Both the position numbers and the translations under genes were made by a program. The notes under the pieces were generated by a model. It was not told the origin of the DNA. It saw only the letters and a program-made list of their open reading frames with translations, and searched no databases. This document shows positions 1-15,540 of a stretch of 64,000 nt of DNA, in pieces (the first letter of the stretch is position 1; every line of letters starts with the position of its first letter). Source of the DNA: Bacteroidia bacterium (GTDB lineage: Bacteria; Bacteroidota; Bacteroidia; Chitinophagales; JAUHXS01); assembly GCA_030426955.1 (NCBI GenBank), contig JAUHXS010000006.1, forward strand, positions 1-64,000, read 5' to 3'.

Positions 1-1
1 G

Positions 2-301
2 CAAATAAGAGTGGATAATGGTCCAGAGTTTATCTCTTCTACTTTTACTAACTGGTGTAATCATAGAAATATCGAAATCAAATATATACAACCTGGTAAA
101 CCTGTACAAAATGCTTTTATTGAAAGGGTTAACGGTTCTTTTAGGAGAGAAATATTGGATGCTTATATATTTTACTCTATAAAGCAGGTAAGAGAATTGT
201 CACAACAATGGATGGAGCATTATAATCATAAAAGACCTCATAATGGACTCAATAATCTTGCTCCTATTATTTATTTTGATAGATTGAAGAAAGTTGGGTA
301 A
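2..301 (+). CDS. IS3-family transposase (OrfB), C-terminal part
   Basis: This is the 3' end of a DDE transposase whose 5' part lies outside the window; the frame is open from base 2. The visible part is the end of an rve integrase core. It has the second catalytic Asp in VDNGPEF and the Glu in ERVNG, with 35 residues between them, which is the D,D(35)E spacing of IS3-family enzymes. The tail (QQWMEHYNHKRPHNGL) is the usual IS3 C-terminal signature. A right inverted repeat follows at once. The element abuts the defence cassette and may have moved or truncated the repeat just downstream. Completeness cannot be judged. Confidence 0.93.
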   Translation, partial: QIRVDNGPEFISSTFTNWCNHRNIEIKYIQPGKPVQNAFIERVNGSFRREILDAYIFYSIKQVRELSQQWMEHYNHKRPHNGLNNLAPIIYFDRLKKVG

Positions 302-303
302 AT

Positions 304-331
304 TGTGGTCCTAGTTTAGGGGAAGCTGACA
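304..331. repeat. Right terminal inverted repeat of the IS3-family element
   Basis: Read inward from base 331 on the minus strand, the sequence starts TGTCAGCTTCCCCTAAAC, a typical IS3-family end (TG...CA termini). It lies 2 bp after the transposase stop codon. The left end is outside the window, so neither the pairing nor the target duplication can be verified. Confidence 0.7.
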
Positions 332-411
332 CCATATTCACACGCTTTTGAAAACATATTTTTTTTGTATTTCTTAGGGCAAAGATAGGAATAAATTAAA
401 ACTTGGACAAT

Positions 412-655
412 TTTATCCGATGTTCTGGGCTGTCGCCGAACAAGATTTCTGAATTACAGATTGTCTTGTATTCGTTTACAGATTCTTTATTTTAAAAATT
501 AAAAATCGTGGTGAGGCATATGGGAGGGTTACCCGCGCCCCGTAACTGCGGCAAATCGCAACGGGAGAGCCGAAAATTCTTGCAAGAGCGTATGGAACAA
601 AGAAAAGATAGACGAAAAAATCAAATTAATCTTGGAGGCGATTGCCGCAGTTACG
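412..655. repeat. Truncated copy 1 of the 334-bp cassette repeat
   Basis: These 244 bases match the last 244 bases of the two full copies at 13297-13630 and 14807-15140, from TTTATCCGATG to GCAGTTACG. The first 90 bases of the full repeat, which carry a GC-rich attC-like foldback, are absent; an unrelated 80-bp stretch joins this copy to the IS3 end. The retained part contains the arm CGTAACTGCGGCAA and its exact complement at the right end. The three copies are in the same orientation, and copies 1 and 2 bracket the defence operon. No credible protein is encoded. Confidence 0.85.
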
Positions 656-1053
656 GCCAAGTATAAGAGCAGTAGCGGATTTCAAGGCGATCACCTTTCC
701 GCTACCACAAAAGTTTATTAAATGCACAGACCTTAATTTTACCACTTCACCCGCTATTGCTTTTATACATTGTTGTAAGCTGGCCTTCTTTCTTTTCAAG
801 TCGTGGTATGTCTCTTTTATATTGGTCAATTTACTTGTCTTATTTGCGTCTTTCTGGCTTGTGTGTCGGCTGTTTTAAAAATTTTAGAGGGAAGGGGTTT
901 TAAAAAATAATTTTCCTTCGGGTGGCAAAGGTGAAAGCTCTTTTGCAATTTTTGGTCTGAGCGTTGGCTTGTGCGAAACGTAAGTTCACGAACACCTTAA
1001 AAAATTAAATTGACCGTGAGTAATTGCAAATGTGCTTACACCTATGTGATGGC
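656..1053. other. Gene-free stretch between repeat copy 1 and the defence operon
   Basis: No convincing gene here. It contains a short foldback at 672-705 (GTAGCGGA with TCCGCTAC) and a 39-bp block at 937-975 that recurs upstream of the defence operon. A short minus-strand open frame (about 626-874) has a lysine-rich start but runs into the foldback and the repeat arm, so it is more likely a chance frame or gene remnant. Confidence 0.5.
937..975. repeat. Left copy of a 39-bp direct repeat flanking the defence operon
   Basis: The block GCTCTTTTGCAATTTTTGG and following bases matches 13069-13107 at about 31 of 39 positions in the same orientation. Both copies are followed within 35-50 bp by TTGCAAATGTGC. 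The pair brackets the six-gene operon. Function unknown; it may be a cassette boundary or a dispersed Bacteroidota repeat. Confidence 0.6.
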
Positions 1054-4017
1054 TTAGATATACTCTTCTATTGCTGATTTCCATACTATAAAACCTTTTT
1101 TGTTGTCTGAATAATCGTGTAAAATTCGAGTAAAGTTGTCTGGGCTGTTTTCTAAAAAAGCCTGTCTTCCTTTTTCTCTAATAATGCTTAGTTGGTTATC
1201 TATTTGTTTTACTTCTTCAATTAGTGATGCTTTGTTTTTTGAAGTATGCCAAATATAAGTTGCTTCTTCCGTGTCCAAAGTCTCCAATACAATGAAATAG
1301 TTATGCTCACCTGCAAGGAGAAAAACAAATGAAAAAGGACTCAACACAAAACGAATCTTCATTACCTGATTTTCGTGTTTGTCTGCTAAATATTGAATGT
1401 GTTTTGAATGTTTGTATTGCTTGTTTTTAAGAATTTCATTCAACAACTCTTCTGCATTTGAATAAATTTTTCCTTGCTCTAGTAATTCGTCAGATGTAAC
1501 AATATTTTGCTTTTTTGGAGTGAATTGCTTAAGCAACCCTTTATTTAAAAATTGAAATTTCACACCCTCAACTACTTCTTTGTTTATATGGTCAATGTCA
1601 GTTGATAGCGCTAATTGAGAAACCAATTTTCCGTTTTCAAACTCGGCAAATATTTCTACAGTAATATTCTTTGATTTTAATGTTTTGATGAAATAGGGTT
1701 TTAACACCTCAAATTCTGGTCTAATTTCAATGTTTTCAATCTGAAATTGAAGTTCGGTATTCATCTCAAAAATTGGATGTTTAAACGCTACACTTCCGTA
1801 ATGAAACTCCAATTCCTCAATTGAAACTTTGATTTTCTTTTCTATAGTTAAAATGTGATTTGAAGTTGTGATTTCGTCCTTTGGCTCATCAAATAAAGTT
1901 GCTTGTTTTTCAATTTTTCGATAATACGAATTGCGTTTTAGGAAAAGCTTATTGAGATAATCAATTTTATAGTCTCTGTAGTCGTAGATAGTAGGATTTA
2001 TTTCCGAGCGTTGCACTCTGCCAATATATTGGATTAGTTTGCCTTCAAAAGAAAATGGATAGACCAAAAACAAACAGTTAATATTTTGCAAGTCTGTTCC
2101 TTCTCCAAAATACTGTCCTGTGGTAATTAAAACCTGAAAATTACCTTCTTTTAATATTTTCCATTTGGCTTTTTTGGAAGTTTCTGAATCATCTCCACTT
2201 AGTGCAATTACTTCATACGATTGTTTTAGAAACAAATACAGTGTATCAATATGTTCTTTACGTTCGGTAATGATAACGGCTTTTTTTCCTTGATTCAATT
2301 CCGCTTTTACATCATCCAATATCGGTTTATTTCGGGCTGTATCGTGAACCAATATTTTTGATAAAGATTCAAAATTATCTGTTTTTGAGTTATAAGGAAC
2401 ATCTAATTCCGTTTTTCGGATGATGATTTTTGCCCGTTTGTAATTTTCAATTTCTGTGGTTTGAATATTGGCAATGATTTCTCCCAAATGGGTAAAAATC
2501 ATTCTTCCATCATTATACTTTCTGAAAGGTGTGGCAGTTAACCCATAAAGAAAATAGGTGTGTAATTTTTCAATCGTATTTCTGAAAGTTTCGGCAGGAA
2601 CGTGGTGGCATTCGTCCACAATAATGGTTCCGAATTGATTTTGTACAGATTCTATTTGTTTTGGTAAACTTTGAATAGTTGCCACAGTAATTTGCTCTCC
2701 GATTTTTAACTTTCCTTGTCCGATAACGCCAATATCTCTTTTTGGAATACCCAAAAACGCTTCAATCCGTTCTGTCCATTGCTCCAATAATTGTTTTCTA
2801 TGAACAATAATAAGTGCAGGTTGTCTTTTATCGGTAATTATTTTTAAGCCAATAACCGTTTTTCCTGAACCTGGTGGAGCTACAATTACTCCGTAATCCT
2901 TTTTGGAAGCTGCTTCTATTACTCCTAGCTGATGATTTCGTAAAGAAGCATTGAACACATAAGAAATTGATGGATTCAATTTTCTTGCATCAACAAACTC
3001 AAATTCGATTTGTGATTCTTTACAAAATCGCAAAAGCTTTCCGATAAAACCTCTTGGAATGAAAATCTCACTTTCGGTTTCCTCAACCAATTTAAAATAT
3101 CGGGCTGTTTCATAAGTATTTCTTCCTGATTTCTTTTTAATGAAAAACTCGGAATTGGCAAAATTCAATTCTTCTTTCAGGCAGTTGATAAGTGCAGGAG
3201 TCAAACCGCTTCTACTTATCCTGATATTATTATTTAAAGAAATATTCAGTTTGTCGTCTGTTGCTATCGGAGGGTTAAATTCTACTCCTGACTTTAATCC
3301 ATTATACAGTTCGTCTAAATGGTCTGTGGTAACTTTTTGAATGTTTTTAAGAAAGTTCCATTGGTCAGCGATAGGTACAAATGATTCTGGATTGACAAAA
3401 CAGCTATTTCCTTTTTCAAAAGTTGGTTTAAAAAGTGGTAAAGCAATCAAGTTTCCAAAGCCTTTTCCTGAAAGGAAATCCTGATTTGGAAACAGTCTGT
3501 CAAAACTTGAACTTTTGTCAAACATTGAAAATGCACCTGACTGTTCCAAAATTGAAATGAATATTTTTCGACTTCTTATAGCAGGATAGGGTTTATCAAA
3601 AAATATCCAAACGTGTCCACCGTTTCCCGAACGTGAACGCTCCAAATAGGCTGGAATTTCTTTTTCTTTACAAGCATTAAGAAAAGTAACGGCTTCACCT
3701 TTCCAATTGGCTTTATCAAAATCTGCTGCCAAAAACCAAGTGGTATTGTCTTGTAATAGGGGATAAATTCCAATATGGTGAAAACCGTCCAAATGCTTTT
3801 GGATTTGTTCATCAGTAATTTTCAGATAGGATTTCTCTGTAAAACTTTGAAATGAACCTCCATTCATTTTATGTGCCCGAAAACGATAAGGGTCATAAAA
3901 AACGGCTGGCATATAACCCGATTTGCCGCCTTTCTCCCAACGAACTGCAAACACATCTTCACGTCCTTTGAAGAGGGTTTGGAAGATATTAGCTATTTCA
4001 GGAGAAAACTCATTCAT
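1054..4017 (-). CDS. AEP primase-SF2 helicase fusion, TOTE-type conflict protein
   Basis: This 987-residue protein has two recognisable parts. The N-terminal 210 residues look like an archaeo-eukaryotic primase domain: DFD at 99-101, SGNGGHVW at 130-137, and SFDRLFPNQD (171-180) followed by GFGNLIALPL. These are hallmarks of the AEP domain described in TOTE-type conflict systems. A superfamily II helicase follows: Walker A APPGSGKT at 380-387, DECH at 468-471, TATPF at 494-498 and motif VI QYIGRVQR near 663-670. The last 300 residues match no nuclease that I recognise. It is the last gene of the operon, 15 bp after the UvrD-like gene. Nucleic-acid remodelling or primer synthesis in anti-phage defence is inferred. 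Confidence 0.85.
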   Translation of the reverse strand: MNEFSPEIANIFQTLFKGREDVFAVRWEKGGKSGYMPAVFYDPYRFRAHKMNGGSFQSFTEKSYLKITDEQIQKHLDGFHHIGIYPLLQDNTTWFLAADFDKANWKGEAVTFLNACKEKEIPAYLERSRSGNGGHVWIFFDKPYPAIRSRKIFISILEQSGAFSMFDKSSSFDRLFPNQDFLSGKGFGNLIALPLFKPTFEKGNSCFVNPESFVPIADQWNFLKNIQKVTTDHLDELYNGLKSGVEFNPPIATDDKLNISLNNNIRISRSGLTPALINCLKEELNFANSEFFIKKKSGRNTYETARYFKLVEETESEIFIPRGFIGKLLRFCKESQIEFEFVDARKLNPSISYVFNASLRNHQLGVIEAASKKDYGVIVAPPGSGKTVIGLKIITDKRQPALIIVHRKQLLEQWTERIEAFLGIPKRDIGVIGQGKLKIGEQITVATIQSLPKQIESVQNQFGTIIVDECHHVPAETFRNTIEKLHTYFLYGLTATPFRKYNDGRMIFTHLGEIIANIQTTEIENYKRAKIIIRKTELDVPYNSKTDNFESLSKILVHDTARNKPILDDVKAELNQGKKAVIITERKEHIDTLYLFLKQSYEVIALSGDDSETSKKAKWKILKEGNFQVLITTGQYFGEGTDLQNINCLFLVYPFSFEGKLIQYIGRVQRSEINPTIYDYRDYKIDYLNKLFLKRNSYYRKIEKQATLFDEPKDEITTSNHILTIEKKIKVSIEELEFHYGSVAFKHPIFEMNTELQFQIENIEIRPEFEVLKPYFIKTLKSKNITVEIFAEFENGKLVSQLALSTDIDHINKEVVEGVKFQFLNKGLLKQFTPKKQNIVTSDELLEQGKIYSNAEELLNEILKNKQYKHSKHIQYLADKHENQVMKIRFVLSPFSFVFLLAGEHNYFIVLETLDTEEATYIWHTSKNKASLIEEVKQIDNQLSIIREKGRQAFLENSPDNFTRILHDYSDNKKGFIVWKSAIEEYI

Positions 4018-4032
4018 AAAATCTCAAATACA

Positions 4033-5919
4033 TTACTCAGCTATAACCTTTACTTCATTTTCGGCAAACCAATTATAGTTAACTACATTACGTTTTAATT
4101 CATTCGGAAAATCTGAATAGCATACAATTGCTAAACTTTCCTTTGCTCGACTACAAGCGACATAAAATAACCTTGTAGTCTTATCTATTCCTGTTTCTTT
4201 ACCCTCTTCTATATTCTTTTTGTCGTTGGCAGATAATGGCTTTAATCCAAATATTTTATCATAGCTAAACATTCTACCTTTAGATTCTTCGTCATCTATA
4301 ACTACCATTACACGCTCAAATTCTAATCCTTTAACTCCTTGATGTGTGCCAAATTTTGATTTTTCATTGATGTACTCACTGTACTTAATAATTTCAGAGA
4401 AACTGGCTTTAATTGCTTCATCCCAAGCTAACAAAACTTCATCTTCTTCCATTGTTTCATCATCTTCAAAATTTTCGTCAGAATCAATACCTACCCTCTG
4501 AGATACTAATTTTAGTGTGGATGTAACTTTAAATAAATTAGTTTCTTGTATTTTTTTCAGAATCTCTACCAACGATGGATGATTATCTTCATTCCATAAG
4601 GATAGAAACGCATTAACTTTCTCATTTGCAGAGTGTAAAATATCTAATTTATTGTCTTCGTTCTGTAGTGCTTGCTTGTTAACTAAATGAGAATGTTGCT
4701 TAACAATATTAGCAATCTCGAATTTGTTACTTTTTAGATGAGCGTTATATAAAGGTAAAACGATTCTTGTAAATAAATTAATAGATGATGATGAACCATC
4801 CAGTAATCCAGTTTTAAGTTTATCAACTGCATAAAGCGGGTCAAAAAATGTAGAAAACCCCATTCTTCGTGCAGCCATATGATGCTCAAGAGTTAATGTC
4901 ATTACATCAGATAAATCACCAACCCATTTTTCATCAAAGGTATCTTCTTTCATTATCTGACGAATCTGTTCTTCCATTTCAAATTTATCTTGTGAGCGAG
5001 AAACGGCAAAAAATCTAACAATTCCCCCAGTATTTTCAAGACGTGGAAATTGTTCCTGACCGTCTATATCCTTTCTGATCTTGTTTATTAAATCAATTAT
5101 TCTTGATTTTGAACGGTGATTCATTTTTTTGGCTGGCTTGACCCAAGTATCAGGTAAACCCATTCCTAAGTTTTCTTTGCCATCTGCATAGATTCTTTGC
5201 ATTGTATCCCCAAACACACCCAAAGTGAACTTTCCATCATTATGGCTTTCAAGTTCAAAAAGAGCCTCTATCAACTCTTTTTTAGTGTCTTGACTTTCGT
5301 CAATAAGTATAATAGGGAATCTATTCATTAGAATTTGCTTGAACAAATCCTTTGATTTAATAAAATCAGCAGCAATTGAAATTACCTCGCTATGGTTCAG
5401 AGAATCTTTAGTAATATTATCTCCATTTGGGTTGTAGATAAATTTCTGAATCTGTTCAAGTCCTTGCAGTCTCTTTTTTTTGGACTCTATTTTTTGAGCT
5501 CTACTAATTGAAGTTTTGTTATTGAGGTCTCTACTTCTTGATTGCTGTTCTTCTAGCTCCGATATTTCAATATTCAAATTATGTTCTATCCAATCCTTTA
5601 TATCAGATGTGAAGTTTTTAATTAATTCCCAGCAAAAACTATGAATTGTACTGATGTTGAAAATTGAACTATATTCTAATCTATGAGAAATTTCATTAGC
5701 AGCTGCATTGGTATATGTAATTATGGCAACCCTTTTATTTCTTAACTTAAAAGCACTTCCAAAGTCCTTTTTGAATTTTTTCAAAACATTAACTAGTGTT
5801 CTGGTTTTCCCTGAACCCGCACCGGCAAAAAGAAAAAAACTTTTTGGGGAGGTTGGTTTGATGCTTTCAAAAATTAAATCATCAACAGGTTCGTCTATGT
5901 TATTAGAATAATTAGCCAT
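4033..5919 (-). CDS. UvrD/Rep-type SF1 helicase, GajB-like
   Basis: A 628-residue SF1A helicase. Walker A AGAGSGKT lies near residues 32-39, motif II DESQ at 207-210, the motif V region VKGLEFERV near 535, and motif VI FYVACSRAK near 585-593. Its start overlaps the end of the OLD-family gene by 8 bp, so the two are translationally coupled. An OLD nuclease next to a UvrD-like helicase is the Gabija (GajAB) arrangement, but this protein is longer than the roughly 500 residues of characterised GajB as I recall it. Extra sequence lies between motifs Ia and II, including a charged helical stretch around 115-155. The specific Gabija assignment is an inference. Confidence 0.87.
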   Translation of the reverse strand: MANYSNNIDEPVDDLIFESIKPTSPKSFFLFAGAGSGKTRTLVNVLKKFKKDFGSAFKLRNKRVAIITYTNAAANEISHRLEYSSIFNISTIHSFCWELIKNFTSDIKDWIEHNLNIEISELEEQQSRSRDLNNKTSISRAQKIESKKKRLQGLEQIQKFIYNPNGDNITKDSLNHSEVISIAADFIKSKDLFKQILMNRFPIILIDESQDTKKELIEALFELESHNDGKFTLGVFGDTMQRIYADGKENLGMGLPDTWVKPAKKMNHRSKSRIIDLINKIRKDIDGQEQFPRLENTGGIVRFFAVSRSQDKFEMEEQIRQIMKEDTFDEKWVGDLSDVMTLTLEHHMAARRMGFSTFFDPLYAVDKLKTGLLDGSSSSINLFTRIVLPLYNAHLKSNKFEIANIVKQHSHLVNKQALQNEDNKLDILHSANEKVNAFLSLWNEDNHPSLVEILKKIQETNLFKVTSTLKLVSQRVGIDSDENFEDDETMEEDEVLLAWDEAIKASFSEIIKYSEYINEKSKFGTHQGVKGLEFERVMVVIDDEESKGRMFSYDKIFGLKPLSANDKKNIEEGKETGIDKTTRLFYVACSRAKESLAIVCYSDFPNELKRNVVNYNWFAENEVKVIAE

Positions 5920-8077
5920 TGGTGTTAATAATTAATCCTTGTTTGCTGCCCTTTAATTGTTCTTCAATCCAGTCTAGACCTTCCTTAATGTAAGTTGGTG
6001 TTTTTATTTTTTTCGGATCTTCAAAATATAAAACATCTAAAGCAAATTCTGCTTTTTTAGCCTGTTTGTCATTGATGATAGTATATGCTTCTTTTGCTAA
6101 TTCTGCCAAATCAGCTTTTTTTGAAACTTCAACCATTTTTTTCAAAAGTCCAGTAGAATCAGCCAAAGTTTTAAAAATTTCCCTATTCTCAATAACCAAC
6201 GCATCTTCAAATGTGTAAGGATAAATTGCAGTTGTTCCACTGACACTTTCAATTTCTATAGCTTTTTGATATGCAACTCTAATTGGCAAATCTTTTTTTA
6301 CTTTATCATCAAAATTCAGATTTAATAATTCATCCAAGTGTTCGATTTTAGGATGCCAACTCTTTAATGTATCATTATTGGTTTTATAGGCTTTTTTTAA
6401 TTCTGGCTGACATTTCTTACCATTGTCATTTGGATTTATAGAATCAACGTCAGTAACCACCAAGCAAACCAATCCTAATGTTTCTATAAGAGGCCCCAAT
6501 CTGTGTGCGTGACTTCCTCCAATTTCTAATATTGTTACGAAGCAATTGTCTAATAAACAATTCTCATTCTTTATAAAATGTGGCAATAATATCCTTTCAG
6601 CAGATCCTTCAACTAGAATAACAGCATCTGCAAAAAATATGTCATTATGCGTTGTGTTCAAATATCGAATTACAAACTTTTCTGTTTCTTTCTCTTTTTC
6701 GCCAAAAACAGCTTTGAGACTAATAACTTCTGATGTAGGTAGAGCTAAAGTATTATTCCTTTTGAAATATCGTAAACTTTCAAATTTTTGGTGTGCAATG
6801 TAACTTGAATGCGTACTTATTACTAATTGAGTAGTAAAATCTTTTTTGTCTTTGAGGTTTTCGGAATATCGCAATACATCATAAGCTTTCTTTATAAAGA
6901 CTTGCTGAACTTGAGCGTGTAAATGCGCTTCTGGCTCTTCGATTAGAACTAAATGTAATGGCTCAATAATATCTTCTTCTGTTATACTATTTTTCCCAAC
7001 CTTCATCCATTCGTCTCTAAACCTTATTAATTCGAATATGATTGATATTAAGTTTTGATAACCTAACCCATTGTACTTTTCTGGTAGTGATAATTCTTTG
7101 TCAATTAAATACTTTACCGCAGAATCGTGTTGAAGACCATCAGAAGTTGAAACTTTGGTGGATAATTGAATTTGAGGGTTTCCAAATCCAGGATAATTCA
7201 ATCCTTCTAATTCTGAAAGAGAGGCTTTAAAACTTTCTTTTAGATTTTTATCAAAATCATCTTGAGCTTTATTGATTGACTCTAAAGCATCTATATCTTT
7301 TTCTGTTGGTTCTAATGTTGGATTAAGATGTTTATCATAATAAGTTCGTAATTGTGATGATAAATTTCTAGTACTGTTATTATCAGCTGTCTCTGAATTT
7401 GCATCACTAAATCCTCGTTGAGCATTAATAATATCAATTTTTATAAGACCCTTTAAAACATCTCCATCTACTGGAATATTGTTTTCCGCTAATTCTTGTT
7501 TTTCATTAGGCTTTTCTGGATCAAGCAGGTAGGTTCTTAATGTAAAATGAGTATTTAGTTTTTGTTCACAAAAATCCCAAAATGTTTTTGGCCAAAGTTT
7601 AAAATCTTTACCTTTCTCTTGTGATAGTTTATTTGACTTATTATAAAGAGTTATGAATTCTTGTATTAATTCATCAATATCTTTAGGCTCAAATCTTAAC
7701 CTGACACCTAATAATCCACCTTTCCATTCCAAGGTTGGTATTATATGACTTACATAATGAAGTTCCGAATTATCAACTTGAATCCACAAATCCAATACAG
7801 GTAAATATGGCTCTAACAGCTTTACGGATTTTTCTTCCTCTTTAAGTTCTGTAGCTTTAATCCAATTCTCTCCAATTTCATTTAGGTTTTTCCAATTAGA
7901 AAGGGTAAAATCTTGTGTTTTGAAACTCTTTGTTTTCAGAAATATCATTAAAGCATCCATAGCAGTCGTTTTTCCGCTATTATTTGCTCCTACAAAAATT
8001 GTTTCTTTTTCTGAAAAATCAATCTGACAAGAGTGAAGCTTTCTGAAATTTTGAATCTGAATGGATTTAATTCTCAT
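5912..8077 (-). CDS. OLD-family ATPase with TOPRIM nuclease domain, GajA-like
   Basis: A 721-residue overcoming-lysogenization-defect (OLD) family protein. The ABC-type ATPase half has Walker A GANNSGKT at 30-37, signature NGLGYQN at 336-342, Walker B IEEPEAHLH near 379-387 and STHSS at 421-425. The C-terminal TOPRIM half has the catalytic Glu in LVEGSAER (490) and DVD at 543-545. Together these indicate an ATP-gated DNA nuclease. It is coupled to the UvrD-like gene (8-bp overlap) and its start shares one base with the stop of the upstream methyltransferase. GajA of Gabija has this architecture but is shorter (about 580 residues), so this may be an expanded relative. Confidence 0.88.
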   Translation of the reverse strand: MRIKSIQIQNFRKLHSCQIDFSEKETIFVGANNSGKTTAMDALMIFLKTKSFKTQDFTLSNWKNLNEIGENWIKATELKEEEKSVKLLEPYLPVLDLWIQVDNSELHYVSHIIPTLEWKGGLLGVRLRFEPKDIDELIQEFITLYNKSNKLSQEKGKDFKLWPKTFWDFCEQKLNTHFTLRTYLLDPEKPNEKQELAENNIPVDGDVLKGLIKIDIINAQRGFSDANSETADNNSTRNLSSQLRTYYDKHLNPTLEPTEKDIDALESINKAQDDFDKNLKESFKASLSELEGLNYPGFGNPQIQLSTKVSTSDGLQHDSAVKYLIDKELSLPEKYNGLGYQNLISIIFELIRFRDEWMKVGKNSITEEDIIEPLHLVLIEEPEAHLHAQVQQVFIKKAYDVLRYSENLKDKKDFTTQLVISTHSSYIAHQKFESLRYFKRNNTLALPTSEVISLKAVFGEKEKETEKFVIRYLNTTHNDIFFADAVILVEGSAERILLPHFIKNENCLLDNCFVTILEIGGSHAHRLGPLIETLGLVCLVVTDVDSINPNDNGKKCQPELKKAYKTNNDTLKSWHPKIEHLDELLNLNFDDKVKKDLPIRVAYQKAIEIESVSGTTAIYPYTFEDALVIENREIFKTLADSTGLLKKMVEVSKKADLAELAKEAYTIINDKQAKKAEFALDVLYFEDPKKIKTPTYIKEGLDWIEEQLKGSKQGLIINTNG

Positions 8078-9684
8078 TATTTATTCCTATTTAATCTCCT
8101 TGCCGAAAGCTTTTTCCAAATGCTATCCGCAAGCTTTATTTCTTTATCTGTAAAGCCGTAACCATCTTTCAGAATTTGCTTGTTGGTGATTTTTAAAATT
8201 TCATCAATGCTTTTTTTCTCCCGCATCATTTTGTCAATGGTTGAAAGCAAATCAGCATTTTCGGTTTGATAGGGGAGCAGTATTTTTCCTGCTTCGCTTG
8301 GCATTAGTTCTAAAACACCACCGCCATAACTACGACCAACAATTTCAGAAAAAGCCAAAGACAATGAATTGTAAAAACTGGCTATGAATGCGTTTTTGTC
8401 CGTGTCTTTTTTCATAAATACACGGTGCATTGTGTCGGTTGTATATGCGTTTGCTTCATTCAGAATCAAACGAGGATAGAGGTTGTTTCTACGGATAAAA
8501 AAAGCATCAGAAAGTTTGATGGAAGGGATGACAAACCAATCATCACGAATGCCTGTTTTGTAGCCTTTGTTTACTCCCATTGATTCACCCAAACGAATGT
8601 ATGAGTTCGCTCCTTTGTGTCCGTTGATTTTCTCTTTGGCTGGAAATACCAATAAATGTGCTTTGGCTTTGGTTTGCCTGTTTAGTTTCCAATCCTTTTC
8701 CGTGAAAATTACGCTATTGACCTGAACACTTCTGCCAACCATTGGTTTAGCGTATTCTTTCAGGTCGTAAGCTTCTACAACTGGCAAAGGAACGGTGAAG
8801 TAATCATTTGCACCTGTGGTAATGCCTACTTCTACACTGGCATAATTACTAATTGTCGGAACTTTTCGTTTTTTGGCAATCTGTTCCAAAAAGTCAATTT
8901 CCTCCTGCTCTAAGAAGTAATAAGTCCATTTATTTGACTTAAAATCTATCTTTTTGGTTGGACTTTTTAGGATATTCACATCAAGCTTTTCAAGGTTTGA
9001 AGCATCTCTTAATTCAAGGTGTTCAATTAAATGCGAATCACTTCCGTTTTTTTCACAAAGCAACAAAACAACTTCTTGCTGTATGTCAGGGAAAACTAAC
9101 TTTTCAAAAGAAATGATATTGATTTTATTGTAGAAATGTGCCAAAAACTCACGGAGTTGTTGAGCGTAAGAAACCTGTAGTAATTCCGCAGGAATCACAA
9201 AACCAATCTTTCCTTTTTCTTTGAGCAACAAACTTGAACCAACTACAAAGGAAACCCAAGCATTTGTCAGTTTTGAATATTTTAGTTTAGCACGATTGAA
9301 AACTTTGATGGCTTCATTTTGCTGTTCTTCCTGAAAATATTGGTATCGAATGTAAGGCGGATTACCCACTACTAAATCAAATCTCTGTGTGGTTTCATTG
9401 CAATACAAATGAAAATCAGTATTGATTACATTCTTTTTGTTGAGTTTGATTTTGTCGGCTTTCTCTGCTTCCACATCATCAAATTCAATGGCTGTTACTG
9501 ATTTGAATTTATGGTTGTTTTCTTTCAATTGTTCGAGAAAAACACCATCACCACAACTTGGCTCTAAAATTTCATAATCAGAACTTCCATTGATGCCCCA
9601 TTTCAAAATAAATGCAGCAATTGGTTCAGGTGTGTAAAATCCACCTCTCAATTTCTCGGCTGTTGCGTTTTTAATTAGCTTCAT
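8077..9684 (-). CDS. Gamma-class N6-adenine DNA methyltransferase
   Basis: This 535-residue protein has motif X GGFYTPEPIA (14-23), the SAM-binding motif I LEPSCGDG (40-47) and catalytic NPPY at 108-111, in the X-I-IV order of gamma-class amino-methyltransferases. The C-terminal half starts with GITTGANDYF and resembles a TaqI/Eco57I-type target-recognition domain. The length is close to that of M.Eco57I, which accompanies the bifunctional R.Eco57I. It overlaps the type IIG gene by 14 bp. The likely role is protecting host DNA at the site cut by the neighbouring enzyme. Confidence 0.88.
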   Translation of the reverse strand: MKLIKNATAEKLRGGFYTPEPIAAFILKWGINGSSDYEILEPSCGDGVFLEQLKENNHKFKSVTAIEFDDVEAEKADKIKLNKKNVINTDFHLYCNETTQRFDLVVGNPPYIRYQYFQEEQQNEAIKVFNRAKLKYSKLTNAWVSFVVGSSLLLKEKGKIGFVIPAELLQVSYAQQLREFLAHFYNKINIISFEKLVFPDIQQEVVLLLCEKNGSDSHLIEHLELRDASNLEKLDVNILKSPTKKIDFKSNKWTYYFLEQEEIDFLEQIAKKRKVPTISNYASVEVGITTGANDYFTVPLPVVEAYDLKEYAKPMVGRSVQVNSVIFTEKDWKLNRQTKAKAHLLVFPAKEKINGHKGANSYIRLGESMGVNKGYKTGIRDDWFVIPSIKLSDAFFIRRNNLYPRLILNEANAYTTDTMHRVFMKKDTDKNAFIASFYNSLSLAFSEIVGRSYGGGVLELMPSEAGKILLPYQTENADLLSTIDKMMREKKSIDEILKITNKQILKDGYGFTDKEIKLADSIWKKLSARRLNRNK

Positions 9685-12658
9685 ACAACTCTTTGATTAA
9701 TGGGATTAATGAATCTTCACTACCTAAATCGTATAGTTTAGCTAATAGCTTTTCTAGGTTGGCTTTCTCTCTTACAAATTGTCCTTGCAGTGGAGTTAAA
9801 GCCCTTTTGTTTCCTGCGTTTGCATCTATTTGGTCATAAATGCTGATTAATTCTTTTTGAGTTTCTACGATTTTGTCGTGAATTGCTTTTTGTTTGGCAT
9901 CTGAAAAATCAATCTTTCTGATAGGTAGATTTTTCAAAACCTTAGTTCCTCTTGCTATGTATCCACCTCTGAAAACTTCGCCATATAATGCACTGAACCA
10001 CTCCAAATACTTAGAGTTGAGAATAGCTTGAATGTAGTAAATGGAATAATCGGAAGTTCTTGGAATTGCAACTACACAATAACCTGCGGTTCCACCTGAT
10101 GAAATCAAAGTTCCGTGAACATCAATTGCATATTTATCACCAACGGACAGAACACCAACAATAATTTTTGAAGGTAGACCGCAACTATCTAAACTTTGAT
10201 GTCTGCCGTATCTATGCCATTCATTTTTTGTTTTGGGCTCAGGTTTTATGTCTCGTTTCGGATTATTTAAAATGGCTTTATGCTTTTGCAAATAGTCATA
10301 AGCCAAAGGAAATTTCTTTTGAATTGTTGTTAGCGGAATTACATCTACACCTGTTTTGGTAGGTTCGTAAGGATAAATTACCCTTGCATTCGGTTTGAAT
10401 GTTCGGTAAGTGTATAAATTATCTTCGCCTGATGATGTTTGAAAGTAAGGTTTTGTTATTACCTTCTCAATCTTGTAATCAACTCCTTTTTTCGTGAAAT
10501 AGAAATGCTTCTTATCCTCTTTAGTTGGTGTAAAAATGTAAACATCATTTGCACTGGTCTGAATACCATTGAAAATATTGTCACTTCCAACCAAATCGTT
10601 AAGTTTTACACTTTGAGAAACGATTTTATTGTAAGTGTTAGTCAATTCAGGTGGTACTAAAACCCAAACTTCACTATCTAATTCATCTGTTTTCTTTGAG
10701 CCATATTTTGCGGCTTCAGGTTCTCTTACTTTCCAACTTTTAAGGCTTCTTACTTCCGCATATTGGAAAGTTTTTTGAGGCCTCTTATTCAGAATTAGCA
10801 AACAAGTGTAAGTGGTCTTATCTGCAAAAACCTGATTTGCACCAAATGAAACGATTGAATGCAGATATTCTTTTTCTGCGAATAATTCACGAAGTTTTTT
10901 ACCTGCTCCAACTTTTGTAAACTTACTCGGAACGATATAACCTAAAATTCCATCATCAGCCAATAAGTTGATTCCTTGTTCAAGAAAAAGGAAGTATTTG
11001 TCAAACTGCTTGTAGGCAGAATTGAAATTTGTTTTGTAAAGTGGTAATTCAAGTGGAGTTATATTTTTCATATCCTCCGACTTCATATAAGGCGGATTGC
11101 CTACAATGACATCAAAGCGAAGTTTTGAAAAATCAAACGGATTAATAATTACTTGGTCTTTTTTATTCGTTACTTGCTTCGGATTCAATAAACTGTTTCC
11201 AAAGAAAACATTTTGTGAAAGGTCGGGTAAAACAGGTTTTGTTTTGTTGGTTGAATTTACATCTTCACCTTCAAGCAATTTGAGAAGCAAACCAAATTTG
11301 GCCGCTTCAACTGCATTATAATCTTTATCAACTCCATAAATGCAATTCAATAAAAGTTGTCGCTTAATATCAAACGGCAGTTTGTAAGTATTGATATTGG
11401 TTTGAATGAGTTTTGACTTGTCTTTTTTCAGAGAGTAGTCAATCAGAATATCATTGAGCAACTGGAACAATTCCAATAAAAATGCACCTGAACCACACGA
11501 TATATCAGCGAATTTGAGCTTTAAAATTTCTTTATCCGTTTTTCCATCACATTTTTTCAAAACGGTATTTCTCAAAATATCGCTTATGATAAATGTTGGT
11601 GTGGTGATTATGTCACGGTCAACATTTTCAGGTTTTTTGACTAAAACAACAGCACCACTTTGAACTGTTAATTTTTCAGAAAGGAAGATTTCATAAATGC
11701 TTCCTAATACATCAGAAGAAAAAACGCTGAATGAATAAGGGCTTTCAGGGTAATACAACTGTTTGATAATAGTCCAAAATACCGAACTGATATTTTCTAC
11801 AATCTTGTCTTTTAGCAATTGGTCAAAAAGTCCTGAATTATAGCGTTTGTCCGCTTGCTCAAACTTTTTGATTAAGGAACTGAAATCATTTGTATTGGCA
11901 AATTTCAATAAGGTTTGGTAATCTTCTAAATTTCTGTCTTCACAAACACGAAGAAAAATAATTCTGTTGATGTAGCTTTGAACAATATCATTAAGTTGTT
12001 GCTCGTCAATTTTTGGGTCGTGTTTGTAGATTTCAGCACCAAGGACTTTTCTCCATTCGTTAATTTGGTTTAGAAATAAATTGTCAATCGAGTATTGATT
12101 GATTTTGCTTTCTATTTCTTTCCATTCCGTTTCAAATGCTCCTGAATACACGGATTCCTTTCCTATAAGCTGTTTGATTTCTTCAAACTTGCTTTCGTAT
12201 TCCGTGTAATGGTATTTTTTTACGAGTGCTTTTGTGTAGTTGTCATCTTTCTCAACTTTTACAGAAGTGTCGTAAATGATTAAATATTCAAAGTTTGAAA
12301 GAACAGAAATTTTCAACTTGGCAGTAAATCCATATCGTCTGACTTGTTTTGCAGTGTCGTTGTTTGACTCAATAGAAACACAAGGTTTTTTTGCTTCCAA
12401 AAAATATTTTCTTTCAGAAAAAAGTCGGAAAGTGTAATCAGGTTTTTTGGAATGTTCAGAAGCGTTTGCTTTCAATGCTTCTTCCAAAATTACTTCTCGT
12501 TCGTTGGTCGGTTTGCCTGCGTTGTTTTTAATGTCCCAACCAAGCAACTCGAAAAACGGGTCTAAGAAATCACTGCGAAGCAGTGTTTCATTATACTTGC
12601 TTGTCAGGTAATAATCCCTGTCGGCTGTATATTTTTCTATGAGTTGCTTTATTGTCAT
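9671..12658 (-). CDS. Type IIG restriction-modification enzyme (nuclease-methyltransferase fusion)
   Basis: At 995 residues this is the size of Eco57I-type bifunctional enzymes. The N-terminal nuclease shows the PD-(D/E)XK pattern as PDYTF (Asp74) and LEAKK (Glu88, Lys90). A helical linker follows to about residue 330. The gamma-class methyltransferase has TTPTFI (352-357), motif I DISCGSGAF (385-393) and NPPY (521-524). The C-terminal third resembles a TaqI-like specificity region, with YIARGTKVLKNLPIRKI near its end. All visible catalytic residues are present, so it should be active. Start: ATG overlapping the regulator stop by 4 bp. Recognition site unknown. Confidence 0.9.
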   Translation of the reverse strand: MTIKQLIEKYTADRDYYLTSKYNETLLRSDFLDPFFELLGWDIKNNAGKPTNEREVILEEALKANASEHSKKPDYTFRLFSERKYFLEAKKPCVSIESNNDTAKQVRRYGFTAKLKISVLSNFEYLIIYDTSVKVEKDDNYTKALVKKYHYTEYESKFEEIKQLIGKESVYSGAFETEWKEIESKINQYSIDNLFLNQINEWRKVLGAEIYKHDPKIDEQQLNDIVQSYINRIIFLRVCEDRNLEDYQTLLKFANTNDFSSLIKKFEQADKRYNSGLFDQLLKDKIVENISSVFWTIIKQLYYPESPYSFSVFSSDVLGSIYEIFLSEKLTVQSGAVVLVKKPENVDRDIITTPTFIISDILRNTVLKKCDGKTDKEILKLKFADISCGSGAFLLELFQLLNDILIDYSLKKDKSKLIQTNINTYKLPFDIKRQLLLNCIYGVDKDYNAVEAAKFGLLLKLLEGEDVNSTNKTKPVLPDLSQNVFFGNSLLNPKQVTNKKDQVIINPFDFSKLRFDVIVGNPPYMKSEDMKNITPLELPLYKTNFNSAYKQFDKYFLFLEQGINLLADDGILGYIVPSKFTKVGAGKKLRELFAEKEYLHSIVSFGANQVFADKTTYTCLLILNKRPQKTFQYAEVRSLKSWKVREPEAAKYGSKKTDELDSEVWVLVPPELTNTYNKIVSQSVKLNDLVGSDNIFNGIQTSANDVYIFTPTKEDKKHFYFTKKGVDYKIEKVITKPYFQTSSGEDNLYTYRTFKPNARVIYPYEPTKTGVDVIPLTTIQKKFPLAYDYLQKHKAILNNPKRDIKPEPKTKNEWHRYGRHQSLDSCGLPSKIIVGVLSVGDKYAIDVHGTLISSGGTAGYCVVAIPRTSDYSIYYIQAILNSKYLEWFSALYGEVFRGGYIARGTKVLKNLPIRKIDFSDAKQKAIHDKIVETQKELISIYDQIDANAGNKRALTPLQGQFVREKANLEKLLAKLYDLGSEDSLIPLIKELYEAN

Positions 12659-12981
12659 TTCCTCTTATTCGCTTTTAAATATTTTGCTCTTTCTTCTGCT
12701 ACTTTCAGTGCTTCTATTCCCAAATCTTCATCTTGAATTTCATATAAAATCTTGTCGCTTAGGAACGAAACCAAAAGTTCGTCTGCGTTGTAATCGTATA
12801 TGTCGGCAAGTTTTAGAACTACTTCTTTTGTGATTTTCCGCTCCCCACGTTCCATTTTGCTTAAAATCGCCACATCAATGTCTAGCAAAGCAGCAACTTT
12901 CCGCAATGGAAGTTCCTTTTCTTCTCTAATGTGCCTAAGCTTTTCGCCTATCGTTTCTGTTGACATAACTTCTATTGACAT
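12655..12981 (-). CDS. XRE-family HTH regulator, C-protein-like
   Basis: A 108-residue protein with a cro/cI-type helix-turn-helix in its first 75 residues (GEKLRHIREEKELPLRKVA, then ILSKMERGERKI). A charged tail of about 30 residues follows. It is the first gene of the defence operon and overlaps the type IIG gene by 4 bp. Small XRE proteins commonly time expression in restriction-modification systems. Two ATGs are possible: codon 1 at 12981, almost leaderless relative to the predicted promoter, and codon 6 at 12966, giving a leader of roughly 20 nt. A palindrome of TTGACA half-sites over the start region suggests autoregulation. Confidence 0.88.
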   Translation of the reverse strand: MSIEVMSTETIGEKLRHIREEKELPLRKVAALLDIDVAILSKMERGERKITKEVVLKLADIYDYNADELLVSFLSDKILYEIQDEDLGIEALKVAEERAKYLKANKRK

Positions 12982-12991
12982 AATGTGTCAA
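12959..12991. promoter_or_regulatory. Predicted operator of the XRE regulator
   Basis: TTGACATAATGTGTCAA (12975-12991) is a perfect 6-bp-arm palindrome with a 5-bp centre. A third half-site, TTGACATAA, starts 16 bp away at 12959. The palindrome overlaps both the -7 element and the first ATG of the XRE gene, so bound protein would block transcription or translation initiation. This resembles the C-box layout of controller proteins. Binding is inferred. Confidence 0.6.
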
Positions 12992-12996
12992 AAGTA
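12989..12996 (-). promoter_or_regulatory. -7 element of the defence-operon promoter
   Basis: On the minus strand this reads TACTTTTG, a perfect match to the Bacteroidota -7 consensus TAnnTTTG, 7 bp upstream of the first ATG. No TTG is seen at the usual -33 spacing. It overlaps the predicted operator. Confidence 0.6.
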
Positions 12997-13068
12997 GAAA
13001 AAGGTTTTTGATTTGTTGCCACTTATTTCAAATTATTTTCAACACTCTTGTCGAGCGTTGGGAAATTG

Positions 13069-13107
13069 GCTCTTTTGCAAAACTTGGGTTGAGTGTCGGC
13101 TTGTGTG
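13069..13107. repeat. Right copy of the 39-bp direct repeat, in a gene-free stretch
   Basis: This copy matches 937-975 at about 31 of 39 positions, same orientation. It lies in the 315-bp gene-free stretch 12982-13296 between the XRE gene and repeat copy 2. The rest of that stretch holds the promoter/operator and AT-rich sequence with no gene that I can support; a 68-codon plus-strand frame at 13162-13368 runs into the repeat and looks spurious. Confidence 0.55.
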
Positions 13108-13296
13108 GTTTTGCAAATGTGCCAATGTGCGGCTGGCTAAAATTATTTTTTAAAATGTGCGGTGGGAAAAATTTTTAAAACATTCGGGTCGGATTGTGTG
13201 TCGCCAAAGTCAGTCCGTGAGTTTTTGTCAAGATGTCAAAGAATGATTTACAGCAGTCAGTTTTTTAGTTGCACAGTCTTTCTTTTGGCTTGCTTA

Positions 13297-13630
13297 CAAC
13301 GGGGCGCGGGTAAAGCGCGTAGCGATTTGTCCGCGCACGTTGTTGGGGGGCAAGATAGTAAATATTGAGGATAAATCGATATGCGCTTTATCCGATGTTC
13401 TGGGCTGTCGCCGAACAAGATTTCTGAATTACAGATTGTCTTGTATTCGTTTACAGATTCTTTATTTTAAAAATTAAAAATCGTGGTGAGGCATATGGGA
13501 GGGTTACCCGCGCCCCGTAACTGCGGCAAATCGCAACGGGAGAGCCGAAAATTCTTGCAAGAGCGTATGGAACAAAGAAAAGATAGACGAAAAAATCAAA
13601 TTAATCTTGGAGGCGATTGCCGCAGTTACG
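13297..13630. repeat. Full copy 2 of the 334-bp cassette repeat
   Basis: Essentially identical to 14807-15140, and its last 244 bp match 412-655. Structure: arm A (AACGGGGCGCGGGTAA) at the left end pairs with TTACCCGCGCCCCGT at 13504-13518. The overlapping arm B (CGTAACTGCGGCAA, 13516-13529) pairs with TTGCCGCAGTTACG at the right end (13617-13630). The first 50 bases (13296-13345) also fold on themselves (ACAACG with CGTTGT, GCGCGG with CCGCGC) and end in CACGTTGTTG, which looks like an integron attC site. The GC-rich arms contrast with the AT-rich genome. Confidence 0.85.
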
Positions 13631-13635
13631 GTTTT

Positions 13636-13815
13636 GTGTATGGCTCGTTGCGTGCAAATTAGCGATTATTTTCGGTTGAGCCACAAGCCAGATTTTTAAA
13701 TTTTACTATTTATCTCTTTTATTGGAAATCGTTAAATTTAAAAATTTGGCGACTTTCCAAATATACCTTAACTTCGATTAAGCAACGGATTAGCAATGAG
13801 CTATACACGTTGTTG
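13636..13815. repeat. Large attC-like foldback
   Basis: GTGTATGGCTCGTTG (13636-13650) pairs with CAATGAGCTATACAC (13794-13808) apart from two G-U positions. Inside, CCAGATTTTTAAATTT (near 13690) pairs with AAATTTAAAAATTTGG (near 13735). The right end is CACGTTGTTG, the same ten bases that end the foldback within the 334-bp repeat. A long imperfect hairpin ending in a conserved GTTG core, placed between cassette genes, is what an integron-type recombination site would look like. No integrase is in the window. Confidence 0.6.
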
Positions 13816-14810
13816 CCACACGTTTTTTAATTCCAATATTTTATTTCTCTCGACTCAATGTAAATCGGTATGAACTTGTCCGAATTCGCAAAATGTTCTT
13901 TCATTGAAACAGTCCGTTTTATCCAATTCCCAAATTTGTCAAATTCGTAGTCATACTCTAATTCTCGATTTAATTCCGAGTTTTCATAGATTTTTACATT
14001 GATAGGATTAAATAGTTTGTCGTATTCGGTTATTCTGTCCAAGTGTTTATTTAAATCTGCCGAAACTGTGTATTCAGTTTGCTTTAAAATTCGATTGTCT
14101 TTCCATTCCGTTTTGGTCAAATATTCATTCCATTCTGTTCTGGTTGAACTTTCCACAAGGTTTCTATTATTATCGTATTTGTAATTAAACTCTTGATTTG
14201 GTTTTTTTTCGTCTCTCTCAAATTGAATTTCTGAAATTAGATTATCGTTTTCAAAATGATATTTGTGATTGATAGTAGTTGTATCGCCTTTTTCAATTGC
14301 AACTTGTTTTGTTACAAAATCCTTTTCGTCATAAAAAACCGTGATTTGCTGTTTTAAGCTGTCATTTATAATTAAAGTTCTTACGTTATTTTTGTTGACT
14401 GTGTCATTTTTTACAGTCATAATGTAATTCAATTCAGCTGGTTTGTTGATTGATATAGTTTTTATTAAAAAATTGTTGCTGTCAAATTCGTAAACATCTT
14501 TTTGAATTAGTTCTCCAAAATTGTCATAGCTTTCAATTTCTTTAATTTCTCCGAAATCGGTAAACTTTTGAGTGAAGTTTAAGATTGGCTTTTCAAATTT
14601 GTTTTCTCCTTGAGAATTGGCTTTTAGTTGTTTCAGTTCCTTTATTTTTCCATAAAGATTATTTGATTCCCAAGCGTTCTTAAATTCCGAGTAAGTCGGT
14701 TTTAGGTTTGTATTCAATTCTGTCTTTTCTTTGCAGTTTTGCAAAAAGAATGGCATTAAAATCAGAAGGTAAATTTTTCTCAATGTTTGTTTTTTCAAAT
14801 GTGTGGCAAC
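13812..14810. repeat. 10-bp inverted repeats bounding a one-gene cassette
   Basis: GTTGCCACAC at 13812-13821 and its exact complement GTGTGGCAAC at 14801-14810 enclose the lipoprotein gene. The coding sequence nearly fills the space: 5 bp from its stop to one repeat and 2 bp from its start to the other. No promoter fits inside, which is typical of an integron-style promoterless cassette. Confidence 0.7.
13827..14798 (-). CDS. Cassette-borne lipoprotein with YD-like repeats
   Basis: A 323-residue protein with a signal peptide and lipobox-like FFLQNC (Cys22), so probably lipid-anchored. Repeated YD-like segments follow (ESYDNFGELIQ, YEFDSNNFL, YKYDNNRNL, TEYDKLFNP, YEFDKFGNW), resembling degenerate YD/RHS-type beta repeats found in many uncharacterised Bacteroidota lipoproteins. 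The start is non-ATG: TTG at 14798, or TTG five codons on. Inverted repeats sit 2 bp from its start and 5 bp from its stop, so transcription must come from the adjacent 334-bp repeat or beyond. Function unknown; no enzymatic motif seen. Confidence 0.8.
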   Translation of the reverse strand: MKKQTLRKIYLLILMPFFLQNCKEKTELNTNLKPTYSEFKNAWESNNLYGKIKELKQLKANSQGENKFEKPILNFTQKFTDFGEIKEIESYDNFGELIQKDVYEFDSNNFLIKTISINKPAELNYIMTVKNDTVNKNNVRTLIINDSLKQQITVFYDEKDFVTKQVAIEKGDTTTINHKYHFENDNLISEIQFERDEKKPNQEFNYKYDNNRNLVESSTRTEWNEYLTKTEWKDNRILKQTEYTVSADLNKHLDRITEYDKLFNPINVKIYENSELNRELEYDYEFDKFGNWIKRTVSMKEHFANSDKFIPIYIESREIKYWN

Positions 14811-15140
14811 GGGGCGCGGGTAAAGCGCGTAGCGATTTGTCCGCGCACGTTGTTGGGGGGCAAGATAGTAAATATTGAGGATAAATCGATATGCGCTTTA
14901 TCCGATGTTCTGGGCTGTCGCCGAACAAGATTTCTGAATTACAGATTGTCTTGTATTCGTTTACAGATTCTTTATTTTAAAAATTAAAAATCGTGGTGAG
15001 GCATATGGGAGGGTTACCCGCGCCCCGTAACTGCGGCAAATCGCAACGGGAGAGCCGAAAATTCTTGCAAGAGCGTATGGAACAAAGAAAAGATAGACGA
15101 AAAAATCAAATTAATCTTGGAGGCGATTGCCGCAGTTACG
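14807..15140. repeat. Full copy 3 of the 334-bp cassette repeat
   Basis: The same 334-bp unit as 13297-13630, same orientation, from CAACGGGGCGCGGG to GCAGTTACG. It separates the lipoprotein cassette from the chromosomal aminotransferase operon and marks the right edge of the accessory region. A plus-strand frame beginning at 14993 is a property of the repeat, not evidence of a gene. The near-perfect identity of copies 2 and 3 implies recent duplication or continuing homogenisation. Confidence 0.87.
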
Positions 15141-15142
15141 TC

Positions 15143-15169
15143 CGAATAAAGCACATTGTGTTTTATTCG
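15143..15169. repeat. Hairpin at the edge of the cassette region; AT-rich gap beyond
   Basis: CGAATAAAGCACA pairs with TGTGTTTTATTCG with one G-T pair and almost no loop. It is followed by GTCGTTATTG, similar to the CGTTGTTG ends of the attC-like foldbacks, so it may be the last, degenerate site of the array. From 15170 to 15513 the sequence is AT-rich and I see no gene. Confidence 0.5.
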
Positions 15170-15513
15170 CCGTATGTCGTTATTGATTTAATTGTTTGTA
15201 ATTTAATATTTTATACTCAAATAATCGATCTAAAGGACTCTTTAATTTTGCAAGACGAATTTTTTAAAAAGGGCATATTTTGCTAAATATGGTCATTTGA
15301 TCTAGTTTTATTTGATTTAAATCAAGTTATTTTATGAAAATCTTTTCTTAATCTCAATTTTAATTTATTAAAATATTGATATTTAGTGCTATATCTAATT
15401 TTAAACTTTTATAACCGCTTGCAAACGGATAATCTTGTTAACCTGTAATTCCGTAAAAAAGAATAAGGCGTAATTCTTGTCATCATATCATATCTGTTTT
15501 CTCTACTTTTCTT

Positions 15514-15521
15514 TAGATTTG
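15514..15521 (+). promoter_or_regulatory. -7 promoter element of the aminotransferase operon
   Basis: TAGATTTG matches TAnnTTTG and lies 19 bp before the ATG. A short hairpin (GTTGT/ACAAC, 15521-15535) lies between it and the start codon. No clear -33 TTG at the normal spacing. Confidence 0.45.
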
Positions 15522-15540
15522 TTGTGCAATACAACTTACC

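Follow-up and report, generated by a model that had tools for sequence, protein, structure and literature searches.

Six genes on the minus strand of a Chitinophagales genome raise the question of whether defence genes packed into one operon also work as one machine. They lie at positions 1054-12981 of the first 64,000 nucleotides of contig JAUHXS010000006.1 (Bacteroidia bacterium, GenBank assembly GCA_030426955.1), the stretch referred to here as the window. A first-pass annotation had read them as a single system in which a type IIG restriction-modification (R-M) enzyme, an OLD/UvrD pair and a primase-helicase act together. Part of this stands, namely a defence operon of R-M, Gabija and AEP genes behind one regulator gene; the integrated six-gene system does not. 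We consider it probable (roughly 0.8), from comparison of the sequences, that the operon is one 12.6-kb integron-like cassette, extending from 13300 to ~653, in which an R-M chassis carries interchangeable second-line defences. Its modules would follow one another in the order chassis (promoter/operator, XRE, IIG and M), slot (here Gabija), optional AEP-TOTE/SF2 gene, constant block and attC-like site. The annotation had the genes right; the ends of the cassette, the repeats on both sides of it and the variable slot were absent from it.

The six genes and their putative control region

The operon consists of the following genes.

12655-12981, minus strand: XRE/C-protein-like regulator, 108 aa, chassis; HTH_3 (Pfam)
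9671-12658, minus strand: type IIG R-M enzyme (IIG), Eco57I family, 995 aa, chassis; Pfam and PADLOC
8077-9684, minus strand: separate N6-adenine methyltransferase (M), M.Eco57I-like, 535 aa, chassis; M_Eco57I_C 126 bits (Pfam), MTase_II 688 bits (PADLOC)
5912-8077, minus strand: GajA, OLD ATPase-TOPRIM nuclease, slot gene 1; PADLOC PDLC00093 939 bits, GajA and OLD matches in the PDB
4033-5919, minus strand: GajB, UvrD-like helicase, slot gene 2; PADLOC PDLC00111 816 bits
1054-4017, minus strand: AEP-TOTE primase fused to an XPB/RadD-like SF2 helicase, optional tail gene; PF22548 287 bits

The open reading frames (ORFs) bear out the earlier account of these genes, which overlap by 4, 14, 1 and 8 bp and leave a 15-bp gap before the last, and Pfam and PADLOC agree with its domain calls (XRE, type IIG, adenine methyltransferase, OLD-TOPRIM, UvrD and AEP-SF2). 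The PADLOC names are annotations, not functional tests. The PADLOC model REase_MTase_IIG gives 1194 bits with the IIG protein and PDLC03604 spans its residues 2-992. In Pfam it is a single chain with an HSDR_N-like N-terminus that carries PD...EAK, an Eco57I domain and a weak TaqI_C match, so that nuclease, N6 methyltransferase and specificity regions lie in one chain beside a separate M, as in the definition of type IIG. GajA (OLD ATPase and TOPRIM) and GajB (UvrD helicase) are adjacent, the gene pair that identifies Gabija, and the last protein joins an AEP-TOTE primase domain to an SF2 helicase (Pfam), one of the defining parts of a TOTE conflict system; its sequence matches in the PDB are CRISPR-associated prim-pol entries and XPB/RadD. 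The regulator matches the PADLOC Control_protein models weakly (23 bits). In the translations, read by eye, the motifs are intact in IIG (PD...EAK and NPPY), M (NPPY), GajA (GxxxxGKT, VEGxxE and DxD), GajB (GxGSGKT and DESQD) and the AEP protein (ADFD, SGNGGH, GSGKT and DECHH).

Two elements at the start of the XRE gene may control the operon; both recur in most chassis loci.

12989-12996, minus strand: putative promoter -7 motif TACTTTTG
12975-12992, minus strand: operator-like palindrome TTTGACACATTATGTCAA, overlapping the -7 motif

In general form these are the Bacteroidetes -7 consensus TAnnTTTG and the palindrome TTGACA-N5-TGTCAA. They lend indirect support to the single promoter predicted earlier; a sigma-70 promoter scan, with 45 sites versus 50 expected, is uninformative. 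We infer that XRE, by binding the palindrome, acts like a C protein and keeps the whole transcript repressed; methylation of a new host would then precede full expression of restriction and of the slot effectors. IIG and M would restrict incoming DNA that lacks methylation while protecting the host, and the slot system would add a second layer with its own mechanism, Gabija presumably acting as a nucleotide- and DNA-end-sensing nuclease-helicase. One could speculate that IIG cuts supply DNA ends to Gabija.

A variable slot behind a constant chassis

With the IIG protein as query, a search of 84,980 species genomes gave 57 loci, mostly from Bacteroidota (L-numbers below; W is the window). The order and spacing of XRE (in most), IIG and M are kept wherever contigs are long enough. 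Chassis proteins are 90-97% identical between loci carrying unrelated slots; chassis that are 96-97% identical in protein are paired with GabijaA, GmrSD/RelA, SIR2-HerA or Lamassu. DNA matches of 91-93% over ~5 kb reach across bacterial orders, to Alkalitalea, Lunatimonas and Aequorivita. Homologues of IIG on plasmids were left out of the comparison, being convergent gene pairs in which no slot follows M. A plasmid search by DNA gave no match, and in viral contigs a single distant Gabija (49%) was found.

The gene after M differs locus by locus and mostly starts 0-27 bp past the M stop. By PADLOC and Pfam, with slot members that had no scan of their own assigned through protein clusters, the slot holds Gabija of at least three model families (W and L022; L003; L015, L020, L032, L051, L033 and L050), SIR2-HerA (L002, L009, L045 and L027), pAgo-SIR2 (L008 and L031), a pAgo-associated REase (L010), a PrrC-like AAA/ATPase of type PDC-S06 (L014 and L016), a GmrSD_N and RelA/SpoT pair (L005, L007, L024, L040 and L043) or, at single loci, Kiwa (L025), Qat (L028), Lamassu (L056) and PDC-S46 (L023); in L011 it is empty. 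A well-matched known system is present in ~22 of the 41 loci with enough sequence, the window included, or 27 if the GmrSD/RelA pair is counted.

By DNA comparison, both edges of the slot lie at stop codons. The match to the window stops at 8064-8094 in nearly all loci with a complete M, whose stop is at 8077; the exception is L022, where it runs on through Gabija. On the other side, the constant block (CACAGGTGTAAGCACATTTGCAATT...) begins no more than ~30 bp past the last slot gene, often directly at its stop, in 14 elements including the window. On the chassis tree the slot label changes 23 times for 18 states (24.4±1.0 when labels are shuffled, lowest seen 21), which indicates that slots turn over almost independently of chassis phylogeny. 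They would be swapped by homologous recombination in the conserved flanks.

The integrated six-gene system finds no backing in these loci. Close kin of the window's GajA and GajB (88-89%) follow M only in L022 of the 57, and close relatives of the chassis hold other systems or an empty slot. It is not the case, on the other hand, that R-M genes and an OLD/UvrD pair almost never occur together: of the ~41 chassis loci whose downstream sequence is long enough, nine carry some Gabija. The idea that the methylases mark self DNA for all of the effectors is without support, because the SIR2, pAgo, Kiwa and PrrC-like effectors of other slots are not known to read methylation. For Gabija, RecBCD and DNA ends have been linked to the discrimination of self from non-self (PMC12407980), and methylation marking would therefore not be needed.

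Nor do all six genes stay adjacent in other genomes. The distribution of the AEP-TOTE/SF2 gene marks it as an optional tail gene of the cassette: it follows differing slots in seven chassis loci (L003, L013, L020, L024, L027, L049 and the window), and its presence requires six changes on the chassis tree. Elsewhere it is solitary in seven of eight other Bacteroidota genomes, and in L143 it stands behind another R-M-like operon (neighbouring ORFs read by eye). R-M, Gabija and AEP come together in three elements (W, L003 and L020), each with a different Gabija family.

Among the slot contents, the GmrSD_N and RelA/SpoT pair (L005:14592-16606 and four other loci) is the commonest after Gabija; the RelA/SpoT partner has no match in PADLOC, which makes the pair a candidate for a new two-gene system. 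Two uncharacterised families recur as late slot genes with differing partners, one of 342-345 aa (L004:7950-8978, L039:7094-8122 and L056:16013-17050) and one of 341-348 aa (L002:9603-10649, L016:17653-18684, L045:17888-18913 and L023:8259-9290), the latter preceded by a small KTSC-like gene in L002, L016 and L045. The GmrSD-N/RelA pair, c7, KTSC-c8 and an 895-aa protein are uncharacterised slot genes that can be ranked as defence candidates.

Ends of the element and the neighbouring recombinase

The element is delimited by the following features.

13292-13300, minus strand: 5' terminus of the R-M cassette, GTTGTAAGC; DNA homology starts here in about ten loci, after differing attC-like sequences
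772-1053, minus strand: constant 3' block, found after the last slot gene in 14 elements
915-931, minus strand: terminator-like hairpin inside the constant 3' block (hairpin scan)
772-780, minus strand: R''-like end GCTTACAAC, the exact complement of GTTGTAAGC
653-774, minus strand: attC-like site of the R-M cassette; 103 bits with covariance model R1 (site in the training set), paired stem arms

By sequence, the element sits in arrays, its limits set by complementary 9-bp ends and an attC-like palindrome, with no attC in its interior. A palindrome of ~121-125 nt follows GCTTACAAC, and a different attC-like palindrome precedes GTTGTAAGC in most loci that have this left end; the exact GTTGTAAGCAAGCC is present once in the genome. 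The element has one of the defining features of an integron cassette, an imperfect 3' palindrome of attC type with an R'' complementary to its own 5' end. A first scan for attC sites demanded GTT and missed most of them; with this requirement relaxed, the stem scan gave 84 attC-like sites in 510 kb versus 7.5 in dinucleotide shuffles (palindromes counted on both strands). Model R1 gave 66 hits in 44 sources, including contigs C19, C20, C22 and C11 of the window's genome, and none inside the R-M element. Leaving aside sources stored in reverse, the hits share one orientation relative to the chassis, except for one palindrome hit on the reverse strand (E 0.05). From the left end to the right attC the elements measure 9.9 kb (L002), 7.6 kb (L005), 7.6 kb (L007), 9.8 kb (L013), 10.5 kb (L016), 9.6 kb (L022), 9.9 kb (L045) and 12.6 kb (window). 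Such a unit would spread between arrays by cassette recombination. Rfam found no RNA family in positions 1-16000. A 37-54-bp direct repeat, 74-81% identical, is common to the leader of the R-M cassette and the constant 3' block and so flanks the whole operon in the window (937-973 and 13069-13105) and in L005, L016, L022 and L045.

The DNA on either side of the cassette has the layout of an array.

15140-15262, minus strand: recombinase 3'-end remnant and attI-like junction, array start; near-identical by eye to the intact copy on contig C20
14811-15139, minus strand: repeat R copy 1, 329 bp, possible ORF-less spacer cassette; 100% identical to copy 2 and the C20 copies
13827-14798, minus strand: neighbouring cassette 1, 323-aa lipoprotein-like ORF; complementary ends GTTGCCACAC/GTGTGGCAAC, weak UPF0257 match
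13628-13814, minus strand: attC-like site of cassette 1; covariance model R1, 31.3 bits, E 2e-4
13301-13629, minus strand: repeat R copy 2, 329 bp; 100% identical to copy 1
412-654, minus strand: repeat R, partial third copy after the R-M cassette; 100% identity over 243 bp

Contig C20 has the order ssb, tyrosine recombinase, R, lipoprotein-like cassette, R, TIR-effector cassette and R; the window retains the remnant of this recombinase's end and copies of R. The second cassette beside the recombinase on C20 (L089:254-1101) encodes a CAP12/Pycsar-type TIR protein. The best PDB match of the C20 recombinase is VchIntIA (E 3e-43). In nine members of its clade the GLR-HxxRH segment is short (99-106 aa). 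An AlphaFold model of the L005 enzyme, of modest quality and built from three sequences (mean pLDDT 67, mostly 70-92 in the catalytic part), has no helix at 273-289, and its best structural matches are XerA and VchIntIA. No match above the TIGR02249 cut-off for canonical IntI was found in the window's genome; a canonical integron, an IntI with an I2 insert beside the array, is thus not what we see here. At E<=1e-50 the clade is present in 21 of 30 host genomes and, among other Bacteroidota, in 42 of 117 (p 0.0009, with no correction for kinship or sampling). I2 and single-strand recombination have been described as exclusive to integron integrases (PMC7790495), so a recombinase that lacks I2 would represent a different route or an exception.

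Several observations weigh against the cassette. Residues 188-244 of VchIntIA, the I2 region, are unmatched by the C20 recombinase; covariance model R1 was built from 26 sites of these same loci; the right junction in the window reads GTAAC with the break after the G, not GTT; and in many chassis loci (e.g. L015, L020, L032 and L051) the left end of a cassette is missing, which means that not every chassis is a cassette. The larger proposal, a widespread integron-like system of Bacteroidota in which an I2-less IntI/Xer-like recombinase moves multi-gene defence operons and the R-M chassis serves as a combinatorial slot platform, is one that we advance tentatively and rate somewhat short of even odds.

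Alternative readings and known systems

The same loci bear on other explanations. A dedicated six-component system, with methylation marking self for IIG, Gabija and primase-helicase together, can point to the tight gene overlaps and single promoter-like region of the window and to the R-M, Gabija and AEP of W, L003 and L020; the Gabija families of these three differ, however, the nearest chassis relatives hold other systems and AEP is mostly solitary elsewhere, which makes it highly improbable. We reject a fixed six-gene machine on the DNA breakpoints at the M stop and the near-random spread of slots on the chassis tree. The slot could also be a guard or backup, in which the R-M complex restrains the slot effector until phage inhibition of restriction releases it; the slot would then be a functional partner, not merely a passenger. 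EcoprrI and PrrC set the precedent (PMC12707154), backup effectors in BREX loci include OLD-TOPRIM proteins (PMC12839542), two slots hold PrrC-like AAA proteins (L014 and L016), and gaps of 0-27 bp in most loci couple the slot tightly to M. Against this, very different effectors (SIR2-HerA, pAgo, Kiwa, Qat and Gabija), many of them known as autonomous, share the slot, and label shuffles on the tree give no signal of co-evolution with the chassis; we hold the guard to be unlikely. The EcoprrI-PrrC and BREX loci have in common with this one accessory effectors within a DNA-modification defence locus; here these are complete multi-gene systems of many unrelated types at one exact position.

Defence genes generally cluster, and many slot systems occur alone elsewhere, as would be expected of an ordinary defence island whose independent neighbours share a strand by chance. 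Against such an island stand constant flanks sharp to the nucleotide, slot edges exact to the stop codon, gaps of 0-27 bp, the conservation of the operator-like palindrome and the definite ends of the element; we think it very unlikely. The ends could alternatively belong to another mobile unit (e.g. a passive transposon with short inverted ends), the palindromes not being recombination sites. In favour are the missing I2 insert of the recombinase, terminal inverted repeats, which by themselves are compatible with a transposon, and attC-like hits in one genome (G047) that has no copy of the recombinase at E<=1e-50. The ~121-125-nt palindromes, however, have two conserved mismatches and one orientation and lie 3' of different neighbouring cassettes, the ends match within each cassette, and instead of target duplications the left flanks hold attC-like sites that belong to the neighbours. 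A transposon-like unit is accordingly a rather poor bet, and we prefer the integron-like cassette.

Each part of this cassette is already known singly. Gabija is present with both genes full length and adjacent, its motifs intact; it differs in being slot cargo behind an R-M chassis, with AEP after it, and in a larger GajA (721 aa). The Eco57I-type system is recognizable from the 995-aa R-M fusion and the 535-aa M with its M.Eco57I C-terminal domain, but here the two genes run in tandem and are joined by an XRE regulator and a slot; in gammaproteobacterial plasmid homologues (~50-53% identity) the genes are convergent and no slot follows M. The TOTE conflict-system primase has its AEP domain and SF2 helicase, here as the optional last gene of an R-M cassette and mostly solitary in the sampled Bacteroidota. 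Defence cassettes in integrons are also known (PMC12444791, PMC13064858). Chromosomal and mobile integrons with anti-phage cassettes in Vibrio and Xanthomonas, as far as the work cited in PMC12444791 is reported there, share the attC-like array, the tyrosine recombinase and defence cargo. Integron cassettes usually hold one ORF (PMC8618304); the cassettes here are 7.6-12.6 kb long, contain as many as six genes, have their own predicted promoter and go with a recombinase without I2. Complete integrons have been reported very rarely in Bacteroidota (PMC9024848). Neither an R-M chassis with a site-exact slot that takes up whole defence systems nor this I2-less cassette system in Bacteroidota turned up in the mainly openly accessible literature that we searched.

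The cassette offers a testable picture of layered immunity, a regulated R-M carrier into which second-line systems fit as into a standard socket, and a single cassette may take carrier and second-line system together between bacterial orders. If the I2-less recombinase does move cassettes, the integron concept reaches a phylum in which integrons had been considered rare, and the need for I2 in attC recombination becomes testable.

Other arrays of the same genome carry further R-M operons: a BanI-type one (XRE, RE_BanI and a C5 methylase) at C19:112748-115453 (L151), and AbiE with a type I R-M operon beside repeat R at C22:5193-13153 (L152). Repeat R, which has palindromes of its own, may be a spacer cassette; it sits between the array cassettes of this genome (window, C20 and C22) and breaks the assembly.

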